A stretch of 64,000 nucleotides of DNA from Planctomycetota bacterium (GTDB lineage Bacteria > Planctomycetota > Planctomycetia > Pirellulales > Lacipirellulaceae). Under the pieces are notes generated by a model. It saw nothing but the letters and a program-made list of their open reading frames with translations. It was not told where the DNA came from and made no database searches. Position 1 is the first letter of the stretch, and each line of letters begins with the position of its first letter. This document shows positions 11,147-61,302 of this stretch, one piece after another. The stretch is from contig JAJDED010000043.1 in the NCBI GenBank assembly GCA_029259915.1, forward strand, positions 62,001 through 126,000, written 5' to 3'. A program made the translations under genes and the position numbers.

Positions 11147-11245
11147 ATAGCCACAAAAAGCACAAAAAGTCACAAAAACAAATGATGGATATATCAAATT
11201 GAATAATCTCTTCTTTTCGTGCCTCTTCGTGTTTTTTGTGGCTAT
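11147..11245. repeat. CACAAAAAG-type inverted repeat between cysH and the Rrf2 gene
   Basis: The arms 11147-11173 and 11219-11245 match in 23 of 27 positions as inverted repeats. They begin ATAGCCACAAAAA and continue as near-10-nt units (CACAAAAAG, CACAAAAAGT). The 45-nt loop is AT-rich. It would form a long hairpin in the cysH-Rrf2 transcript, so it may separate or attenuate the two genes. Confidence 0.75.
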
Positions 11246-17230: not shown

Positions 17231-17326
17231 CAATAATGTCGTGAGTAGGCCTGCATAGAGCTCTGATAGAACACGGACAAACACGGATTAGGCAGATTCT
17301 CACGGATTGTTTTGAAAGGTGTACTG

Positions 17327-17703
17327 ATGTCCGATCATTTGTTGCATGGAAAATTACAGACGCAATCATCAAGAGTTTCTTCCATACTTATAACGCCCTC
17401 GGTACTGGTTTTCTGGAAAAGGTCTATGAAAACGCACTTAGAATTTCTTTGACGAAAGCTGGCCTAACTGTCAAACAACAATGGTCTATTACGGTCAGTT
17501 TTGAAGGTGAAGCAGTAGGGGAATATTTTGCCGATTTGGTCGTAAATGATACTGTGATTATAGAATTGAAAGCAGTTCAAGAATTTGTGCCAGCCCATGA
17601 GGCACAACTCATCAATTATCTCAAAGCAACCGGTTACCAGGTTGGTTTGTTATTGAACTTTGGTCCCAAAGCGGAATTCAAACGCAAGATATTTACGCAT
17701 TGA
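17327..17703 (+). pseudogene. GxxExxY protein (PD-(D/E)XK nuclease superfamily), frameshifted near its start
   Basis: The intact part reads AIIKSFFHTYNALGTGFLEK then VYENALRISLTKAG, carrying the signature G-x-G-F-L-E-K-V-Y (GxxExxY). It continues to GEYFADLVVNDTVIIELKAV, the Asp...Glu-x-Lys core, and FVPAHEAQLINYLKATGYQV. This is the standard family to its C-terminus. The family N-terminus is encoded from ATG 17327 in a different frame: reading MSDHF then shifting by one base in the run of five T at 17338-17342 gives VAWKITDAII in phase. Without the shift the ATG frame stops after about 22 codons. No good start codon exists in the intact frame before a TTG at 17449. So this is most likely a one-base insertion. 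Translation from an unusual start remains possible. Confidence 0.7.
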
Positions 17704-17718
17704 AGCCCGATCTGTGTT

Positions 17719-17940
17719 TGACTATCGCACTTTTTTTGGGAGGGGCAAGAACTTCACAAGTTCCGTCAAAAGAATAGAACGCAGATAAACGCTGATAAAA
17801 CGGATTGGCACCGATTGCGAGAAAGCTAGTAAGGTTTGTTCTCGTGGGCACAGTTATCCGTACCCTGAAAAATCTGTGAAAATCTGTATAATCTGTGTGC
17901 ATCCGCGTTCTATTCTGCTTGCTAAAAAGTGCAAAAGTCG
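17719..17940. repeat. Nested palindrome A (AGAATAGAACGCAGATAAAC arms)
   Basis: Inner arms 17771-17806 and 17881-17916 match as inverted repeats in 28 of 36 positions. Outer ends share GACT..GCACTTTTT (left, near 17719-17737) with its complement AAAAAGTGC..AGTC (17924-17939). The first 50 nt of the inner left arm match the copy at 53353-53402 in 48 positions, so the two are one element family. The inner arms are built of about 10-nt units (ACGCAGATAA, ACGCTGATAA, AACGGAT). Confidence 0.8.
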
Positions 17941-18013
17941 ATCTGTGCAAATCCGCCTAATCTGTGTCCATCAGCGTTCTATTCCCTTTCCGAATTACCC
18001 GCTGCAATCTACC

Positions 18014-18898: not shown

Positions 18899-18931
18899 GG
18901 GATGAATCAAGAATAACTTCGTCACATCATT

Positions 18932-19170
18932 ACGCCGAAGGCGTTGCACACCACAGCCCAGGGTCGCGGCGCAGCCGCGCACCCTGGGTCTCGATCGACC
19001 ACGGGATCGGTTACACCGAAGGTGTTATACAATCGCAATCGTGGACTGATTGCTTCAATCTCAATTCCCGCGTGTGTAACACCTACGGCGTAATGTCTTT
19101 ATGTGAACGAGTACCCATGGTGCGCCGGTATGCGGCGACCCTGGGCTGTGGTGTGTAACGCCTTCGGCGT
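18932..19170. repeat. Large two-level palindrome (ACGCCGAAGGCGTT...CCCAGGGTCG)
   Basis: The outer arms 18932-18971 and 19131-19170 are inverted repeats with only one mismatch in their first 36 nt (words ACGCCGAAGGCGTT and CACCACAGCCCAGGGTCG). An inner pair, TTACACCGAAGGTGTTA and TAACACCTACGGCGTAA, flanks the centre. Each arm also contains small self-palindromes (GCCGAAGGC). The element lies downstream of the MBL gene and upstream of the broken toxin gene. It carries no gene. Confidence 0.85.
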
Positions 19171-19230
19171 AGAGATTCGGCCAAAATGTCAATCGAGTGC
19201 GGAAGTTATTTTTGAGTCACCCCTAAGTGT

Positions 19231-53258: not shown

Positions 53259-53294
53259 GTTTGAGCCCGTATGTTCCGATCGAAATTTGGAACT

Positions 53295-53532
53295 ACTCAG
53301 TTCGACTTTTGCACTTTTGGGGGTTCAGTAACTACCACTTTTTCGTGAAAAAAGAATAGAACACAGATAAACGCGGATAAAACGGATTGGCACCGATTGC
53401 GAAATAATCGAGAGACGCGTTTTCTTAGACGCTGTTATCAGACCCCTGAAAGAAATCTGCGGGAATCTGCATGATCCGTGTGTATCTGCGTTCTATCCTG
53501 AATGCTAAAAAAGTGCAAAACTCGAACTGAGT
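53295..53532. repeat. Solo palindrome B, related to the GxxExxY element
   Basis: Outer arms: ACTCAGTTCGACTTTTGCAC (53295 onward) and its near-perfect complement at 53507-53532. Inner arms: AGAATAGAACACAGATAAAC (53353) and the complement ending about 53498. The first 50 nt of the inner arm are 48/50 identical to copy A at 17771. No GxxExxY gene is present between the arms, so this is a solo copy. A small hypothetical gene starts 30 bp after it. Confidence 0.85.
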
Positions 53533-53561
53533 GTATGTTTCAAAACCCACACGAACTTACC

Positions 53562-61250: not shown

Positions 61251-61302
61251 TAGCCGCGATCTTACAGATCGCTGGCTCCGGCGAGCTGTAAGATCGCGGC
61301 TA
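61251..61302. repeat. TAGCCGCGATCT inverted repeat, two copies facing each other
   Basis: TAGCCGCGATCTTACAG (61251-61267) and CTGTAAGATCGCGGCTA (61286-61302) are perfect 17-nt inverted repeats, and the left copy itself contains the GCGATCT-TAC-AGATCGC hairpin. It lies after the ftsH stop and may end its transcript. Confidence 0.85.

Follow-up and report, generated by a model that had tools for sequence, protein, structure and literature searches.

The question raised by this locus is why a small gene of the GxxExxY family should lie between long inverted repeats with a second palindrome nested beside it, and whether such an assembly behaves as a mobile unit. The window, by which we mean the whole stretch of 64,000 nucleotides that was analysed, lies in contig C38 of a Bythopirellula genome (G000) of 4.2 Mb in 64 contigs. 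The left arm of the unit (17266..17307, plus strand) consists of GAAC followed by the words CACGGAC, CACGGAT, CAGAT, and CACGGAT, and the right arm (17941..17984, minus strand) was extended by our repeat search past position 17982. The 32 of 42 inverted matches that the initial annotation had counted between 17266-17307 and 17941-17982 were exact, and the best pair of 42-mers from the two flanking regions matched at 33 of 42 positions; in 100 dinucleotide-preserving shuffles the best pairs averaged 22.2 and never exceeded 25. The word order and spacing of the left arm recur at a locus of another genome with non-homologous flanks (L102).

The gene between the arms (PF13366/TIGR04256; 17353..17703, plus strand, with the domain at 17362-17700) is the PD-(D/E)XK-like nuclease gene that had been proposed from its letters, scoring 131 bits against TIGR04256 (E 2.3e-38, cut-off 35) and 138 bits against PF13366 (cut-off 22). 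Its domain frame contains no ATG, GTG, or TTG upstream of 17449, and the likely start, the ATG at 17327 (MSDHLLHGK...), is in a frame other than that of the domain. Because start codon and domain are in different frames, this copy is probably broken near its start or misassembled there, although it may use a rarer start codon. None of the seven GxxExxY matches in the window genome contains an internal stop codon.

The 220-nt palindrome that had been described beside the gene is present, without a gene of its own, at 17720..17939 between the gene and the right arm. It is built from inner arms (17771-17816 and 17871-17916; 35 of 46 positions matching) and an outer bracketing pair (17720-17735 and 17924-17939), and it belongs to the same word family as the unit's arms, sharing AGAATAGAAC, CGGAT, and CAGAT with them as had been claimed. 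Similar elements of about 250 nt are dispersed more widely, with other copies of this family at 53285..53540 in the window and at L030, L031, and L035, all 74-84% identical in a plus-strand search of the fetched loci. The second window copy encloses no GxxExxY gene and is 79.7% identical to 17768-17945 over 182 columns. The nested palindrome is not special to the window site, since the arm-gene-palindrome-arm order is found again at L102; two further loci with the same arm class as the window unit (L106 and L114) are without it.

To score enclosure, we took the best local alignment between the 500 nt upstream of a gene and the reverse complement of the 500 nt downstream. GxxExxY matches occurred in at least 31 of the 39 genomes searched, from which 96 loci were chosen for good scores and 28 more, many of them partial, were added, the uncounted remainder being mainly short fragments, many in G022; six of the 96 and one of the 28 were dropped for a flank shorter than 500 nt. 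In the first set, 83 of 90 testable loci scored at least 28 and 74 at least 34, compared with 4 and 0 of 87 when the same loci were shifted 500-1000 nt outward, and with 69 and 33 of 900 for partner-swapped flanks. Repeats in direct orientation reached these scores at 21 and 13 of the 90 loci and were commoner than in the shifted control. The additional matches gave 23 of 27 (shifted, 1 of 23). The expected enrichment of such palindromes near GxxExxY genes relative to other genes was therefore borne out in the window genome and its relatives, with 106 of 117 testable genes lying between inverted repeats at a score of at least 28; arms at this score were not detected for the other 11. Outward-shifted controls reached the score in 5 of 110 cases, and housekeeping genes did so in 4 of 59 (frr 2/29, scpA 2/30). 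Chance repeats were rejected as the source of the arms because shuffles, shifted loci, and the mirror and gene controls were all low.

All seven GxxExxY genes of the window genome are flanked by inverted repeats, and each has its own iterated word: CACGGAG, CGCCAAG, CGCAGAG, CACGGAT/CAGAT (the window unit), CACGACG, CGCGAAT, and, weakly (score 24), CACAGAT/CACGGAT. Two units of different word classes stand in tandem in this genome (G000:C30:74237-76249; L002 and L005), and adjacent pairs of units are also found in G002 (L327/L075) and G008 (L342/L096).

The association reaches beyond the relatives into other phyla. For one class of proteins (L073-like, from GTDB genome contigs), 80 loci were returned, of which three were dropped, and 67 of the 77 testable loci scored at least 28 (outward control, 0 of 69), a count that includes four duplicates of first-set loci (L207, L208, L210, and L221, excluded from the protein-word and G.U/A.C analyses below) along with 17 that come from a single Nostocales site. 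As labelled, the taxa with arms comprise Cyanobacteria, Desulfobacterales and other Deltaproteobacteria, Myxococcota, Acidobacteria, Chloroflexi, Ignavibacteria, Verrucomicrobia, SAR324, Gammaproteobacteria, Gracilibacteria, and Planctomycetota, with many of the loci coming from metagenome bins. A plasmid collection yielded four GxxExxY matches, and the three that were examined all had arms (Bacteroides, score 45; Bernardetia, 36; Sphingomonas, 41).

An arm usually carries a 7-nt word, approximately C-R-C-N-R-A-K, three or four times over at intervals of 8-11 nt. Most left arms lie 10-110 nt ahead of the domain match, and most right arms 0-180 nt behind it. In 73 of 83 units, two or more hexamers RCNRA[GTA] were present in each arm. 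Of 289 spacings between neighbouring hexamers, 257 were of 8, 9, or 10 nt, and by eye the spacing pattern was usually repeated in both arms of a unit. The word itself varies between genes, so the idea of the arm as one sequence to be searched for did not hold: different gene classes have different iterated words.

This variation follows the protein. Among the 83 planctomycete units, protein and arm similarity were correlated (Spearman 0.275; null 0.00 +/- 0.035, maximum 0.13 of 999). Once pairs with homologous flanks had been removed, alike arms (score of at least 34) were found in 0-2% of pairs below 50% protein identity, 8% at 50-60%, 48% at 60-70% (n=90), and 60% above that (n=10). Comparing the same 83 units with 55 units from other phyla gave nearly the same steps, 0-2% below 50% identity, 10% at 50-60%, 47% at 60-70% (n=391), and 57% above (n=23), although these pairs are far from independent because the other-phyla loci all belong to one protein class. 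Homologous-flank pairs were left out of this second comparison too, as were planctomycete-labelled loci from the other-phyla set. From these alignments we concluded that the word tracks the protein. Orthology was rejected as the cause of the covariation because the effect persists without the homologous-flank pairs.

Arms were common to only 5 of 214 pairs of units within one genome, compared with 250 of 5351 pairs between genomes. Since units of one genome seldom share arms, a single genome can apparently hold several different protein/word pairs, although same-genome sharing is only about half the between-genome rate and orthogonality of the pairs is thus not proven.

Palindromes of this type are also abundant away from any GxxExxY gene. 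A census of 464 kb of the window genome (the window plus 20 stretches of 20 kb) returned 37 inverted repeats with scores of at least 34 (mirror control, 0), of which 16 were, by reading, iterated-word palindromes and only one, that of the window, adjoins a GxxExxY gene. Another gene-less palindrome in the window has the same layout with a different word, CACAAAA (11147..11245; census score 40), and a relative at L171:9391-9486. Searched as exact patterns in the 39 genomes, CACRGAG arms numbered 0-101 per genome and CGCCAAG arms 0-99, with 0 or 1 in the backward-read controls. The median number of CACRGAG arms was 43 in the 11 genomes with a recognised cognate gene and 2.5 in the other 28 (p 7.5e-4), and that of CGCCAAG arms was 34 in 8 genomes with the gene and 0 in 31 without (p 4e-5), kinship being ignored in both tests. 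Within the genus the CACRGAG contrast was weak (p 0.07). Some genomes with the cognate gene have almost no CACRGAG arms (G004, 3; G006, 3; G008, 1), and others are rich in arms without a recognised gene (G036, 101; G002, 63 of the CGCCAAG type); because cognate genes were assigned just from arms scoring at least 28, some of the genomes counted as without may hold an unrecognised one.

In G011, 24 close pairs of CGCCAAG arms converge, at distances of 63-116 nt, and none diverge. On a three-protein tree, which covers the 24 of 39 genomes with all three proteins and has some weak nodes, including the placement of G000 (0.37), the CGCCAAG-rich genomes G000, G002, and G011 are scattered within the genus among poor ones, suggesting that expansions or losses of these arms were repeated. 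Two other kinds of repeat were seen in the same material. A short dispersed hairpin of the TAGCCGCGATCTTACAGATCGCTGG type, lacking iterated words, has five copies in the 464 kb (window 61251-61302; L161:10163; L163:1212; L166:10904; L176:5142), and gene-less palindromes of GAGGTCAG-type words lie at L163:19548-19649 and L171:7445-7521, with similar words flanking a four-helix-bundle gene (L351).

The domain at 17362-17700 was modelled with AF2 (pLDDT 91). The model has the order alpha-beta-beta-beta-alpha-beta, and its nearest fold match is Cas4 SSO0001. The D, E, and K of the PD-(D/E)XK motif are all present in the window copy, which is thus a member of the GxxExxY family (TIGR04256; PF13366, PDDEXK_3) by HMM score, fold, and catalytic residues. 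The match to Cas4 is one of fold, and a 7-sequence profile matched no solved structure in the PDB at E<=1; compared with Cas4 and RecB-type nucleases and archaeal Hjc, the protein is small, with 113 residues against about 200 in 4ic1, and identity to the best matches is 16-22%. The D-[E/D]-K pattern is kept in 173 of 176 relatives, which had been chosen as good matches. The three proteins with altered motifs (L001 and L060, D-E-E; L109, D-K-K) keep their arms nonetheless, at scores of 39, 42, and 43. Of 11 pairs, 10 gave a defined dN/dS, always in the range 0.03-0.16, which indicates that the GxxExxY genes are under purifying selection.

Taking these results together, we consider it fairly probable that the GxxExxY genes and the word palindromes form an alliance like that of REPINs and RAYTs, run by a Cas4-like PD-(D/E)XK nuclease. 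Each gene would be the resident enzyme of one word-palindrome family, a single-domain nuclease recognising arms in which its own short word is repeated three or four times, and the gene-less palindromes with the same arms would be its non-autonomous partners, multiplying at a low rate alongside it. The gene would stay single-copy per word, often long inherited at one site and kept there by purifying selection, and gene and arms would sometimes change together as one cassette, through replacement at the same site or acquisition across phyla. As for the mechanism, we infer that the protein binds its arms and makes a cut in or next to them, with a hairpin or cruciform of the arms as the probable substrate, and that repair copying then leads to the spread or maintenance of the palindromes.

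The history of individual sites bears on how far the gene itself moves. The window unit lies between scpA and an MBL-fold gene, in a gap of 831 nt. Among 12 congener scpA loci, the scpA-MBL gap was short in two: that of G006 (113 nt) is empty of the unit, and that of G004 (305 nt) contains a gene-less palindrome built from a different word. The remainder had longer gaps, other genes, or no adjoining MBL-fold gene. At a second site, the pyrH-frr gap, read by eye, there was a gene-bearing CACGGAG unit in G000 and G002, a gene-less palindrome with CACRGAG words in G001, G009, and G017, an apparent single-arm remnant in G005 and G008, a mosaic with a second palindrome in G011, and no unit in G004, G006, G007, and G013. 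Empty sites in relatives, which the initial annotation had proposed to look for, thus exist at both positions. The pyrH-frr gap (L287-L316) has the appearance of a hot spot, with CACGGAG, GGGGATA, TGACCAA, GGCCAAT, and GGGGCGA word types across the relatives.

Of 45 cross-genome pairs of units at 70% identity or more, 26 shared both flanks and 17 neither, some of the contigs being short. It would accordingly seem that most gene-bearing units have long stayed where they are and that some have been relocated or transferred. Movement of the gene would be rare, because many units occupy the same site in different genera. Direct repeats of at least 5 nt at the ends of the units were found in 14 of 74 cases compared with 9.1 expected by swapping, a comparison for which the junctions are approximate and lack a closely related empty site. 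The proposal of a small mobile unit with structured ends is therefore supported in part: the component present in many copies is the gene-less palindromes, and the gene-bearing unit does not have the look of a freely jumping element given its rarely shared arms within genomes, its recurrence at the same sites across genera, and the lack of a clear excess of target-site duplications.

Replacement in place was seen at one conserved site represented by 17 Nostocales loci, in which two arm classes occur, CGCAAAG and CGCAGAG. With the flanks aligned separately and 81 pairs having both flanks at least 80% identical, gene identity fell short of flank identity by 0.140 in the 30 pairs that combine the two arm classes and by 0.007 in the 51 pairs of a single class; for L267 and L284, the flanks are 92% and 95% identical and the genes 75%. 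Since gene identity drops between arm classes while the flanks stay alike, we conclude that gene and arms were replaced together in place, although the 81 pairs represent few events, being drawn from 17 loci at a single site. A cruder version of the test, with one alignment of 2-kb slices for all 136 pairs, showed no difference (0.048 vs 0.042, p 0.08).

These patterns are what would be anticipated from the main rival to the alliance, a homing-type cassette. Its nuclease would cleave its fixed site wherever that is empty or has a divergent allele, or else cognate palindromes, and double-strand-break repair would copy gene and arms into the cut; the gene-less palindromes would be relics or targets and not partners that multiply independently. 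Long occupancy of the same site by the 26 flank-sharing pairs, the swap of gene and arms between similar flanks, and the coexistence of gene-bearing, gene-less, single-arm, and empty states at pyrH-frr are all consistent with it. Homing alone, however, does not place many gene-less palindromes at unrelated sites of one genome, and swaps between neighbouring word classes would be unexpected if cutting were strictly word-specific. We therefore regard homing at a fixed site as unlikely to be the better account, while noting that it may operate alongside the palindrome alliance.

A different kind of doubt comes from a second protein family with a parallel layout. Genes for four-helix-bundle proteins (PF05635, S23/IVP) are present in 29 of the 39 genomes, often in several copies, and in two batches of loci (L177-L206 and L348-L359, with the gene at about 1501 to length-1500; 4 of 30 in the first batch clipped) 32 of 38 testable genes lay within iterated-word inverted repeats scoring at least 28 (shifted control, 3 of 38). 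Their words are of the GTTAGC, GTCAGC, GGCAGT, and TTCAGTG types with a period of about 7-8. Because these non-nuclease genes share it, the layout alone needs no nuclease action, and two unrelated families in similar palindromes might mean that the gene is a passenger, the palindromes owing their movement or origin to enzymes of the host or to others, such as Y1/RAYT-type transposases, or to replication slippage. The window genome does have 10 Y1_Tnp matches. Yet each family has its own words, with none of 3392 cross pairs of four-helix-bundle and GxxExxY arms scoring 28 or more, and within each family the word tends to follow the protein (for the four-helix bundles, in 3 of 7 pairs at 60% identity or more, few as these pairs are). 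Furthermore, the inverted repeats scoring at least 28 at 4 of the 5 testable Y1_Tnp loci are of other sequences, and word triplets were near just one of the 10 (L362). We consider the passenger account quite unlikely. REPs made by RAYTs were likewise rejected as an identity for the word palindromes, the Y1_Tnp genes of G000 having other palindromes.

The arms might also be regulatory or RNA elements of the gene they flank, such as terminators or RNase III substrates like those of 23S rRNA intervening sequences, with neither mobility nor recognition of the arms by the protein. Other bacteria have S23/four-helix-bundle ORFs in stem-loops of their 23S rRNA (PMC4990558), and the layout of the four-helix-bundle genes here is parallel. 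In the L073-like multi-phylum set, sense-strand G.U mismatches in the arms were somewhat commoner than A.C (62 vs 43, p 0.08), but the planctomycete set had 72 G.U and 83 A.C, with no sense-strand wobble preference. Because no such preference is clear, a role of the arms at the DNA level is more likely than one as an mRNA stem. Terminators and RNase III stems were set aside since they leave unexplained both the abundant, dispersed gene-less copies and a word that tracks the protein across phyla, which a generic stem would not need to do; we consider this reading very unlikely. An ordinary DNA transposon with MITEs, in which GxxExxY would be the transposase, was set aside as similarly improbable, since the terminal inverted repeats, the catalytic residues, the dispersed gene-less derivatives, and the 17 pairs that share no flank are countered by the lack of a clear duplication signal, the rarity of shared arms within genomes, and long residence at one site under strong purifying selection.

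A broader claim can be made, though more tentatively and with slightly less than even confidence. The units may represent an undescribed class of bacterial mobile DNA, 'word palindromes', in at least 10 phyla as labelled, in which a minimal nuclease reads three or four copies of a word at 8-11-nt spacing, specificities co-evolve with the protein, several orthogonal pairs reside in one genome, the nuclease drives the copying of gene-less palindromes, gene and arms form one cassette, and the four-helix-bundle proteins are a second, independent branch. Were this so, the widespread GxxExxY family would gain a function as partner of large populations of palindromic repeats, a second enzyme class would stand beside the HUH transposases in REPIN-like alliances, and such alliances would have arisen more than once. 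Because protein similarity and the repeated word are so sharply linked, a recognition code may be readable from the sequences, and the many natural protein/word pairs could be aligned to predict which residues read which bases. The same reasoning offers a lead for the similar four-helix-bundle genes.

Searches of the open literature, to which most subscription papers and all preprints are external, returned no function for the GxxExxY family. Two papers name it, once each and just in passing, in passages that make no mention of repeats, and a single paper was listed for PF13366/TIGR04256. Among the matches listed for palindromes, four-helix-bundle genes, Pirellulales repeats, RAYTs, and dispersed repeats of cyanobacteria in the same literature, with the same limits, the association was not found, and those listed for six arm sequences held no relevant mention.

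Among known systems, the S23/IVP ORFs of 23S rRNA intervening sequences are alike in that a small ORF is enclosed by inverted repeats (PMC4990558), and differ in having a protein unrelated to GxxExxY and other words. MITEs and IS elements share the terminal inverted repeats and the gene-less derivatives, but the GxxExxY units are without a clear target-site duplication signal and rarely share arms within a genome. The window genome also appears to contain a genuine REP/RAYT system, distinct from the GxxExxY palindromes, in that a long palindrome at 18931-19171 (score 83) resembles, by eye, the flanks of a RAYT-like Y1_Tnp gene (L361).

The closest parallel is with REPIN-RAYT systems. REP sequences bear a GTAG/CGTC tag. 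One point of difference is that the GxxExxY arms are iterated 7-nt words at 8-11-nt spacing. Published accounts of REPIN-RAYT systems (PMC3116915, PMC8049555) describe palindromes that are dispersed as converging pairs and are more numerous where the gene is present, a cognate gene bordered by repeats of its own type, and several distinct genes per genome that persist for long periods. The GxxExxY system likewise has converging gene-less palindromes, its own arms around the gene, and long persistence; its palindromes are commoner where the cognate gene is present, a statistical link that ignores kinship; and the cognate genes are single-copy and distinct within a genome. The comparison that the initial annotation had drawn with REP elements is therefore stronger than first proposed, because the association spans genomes and phyla and empty sites exist in congeners. 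The enzyme is a PD-(D/E)XK nuclease and not an HUH/Y1 (PF01797-type) transposase, so that the system falls outside the REPIN-RAYT class on its enzyme, while probably working in much the same way.
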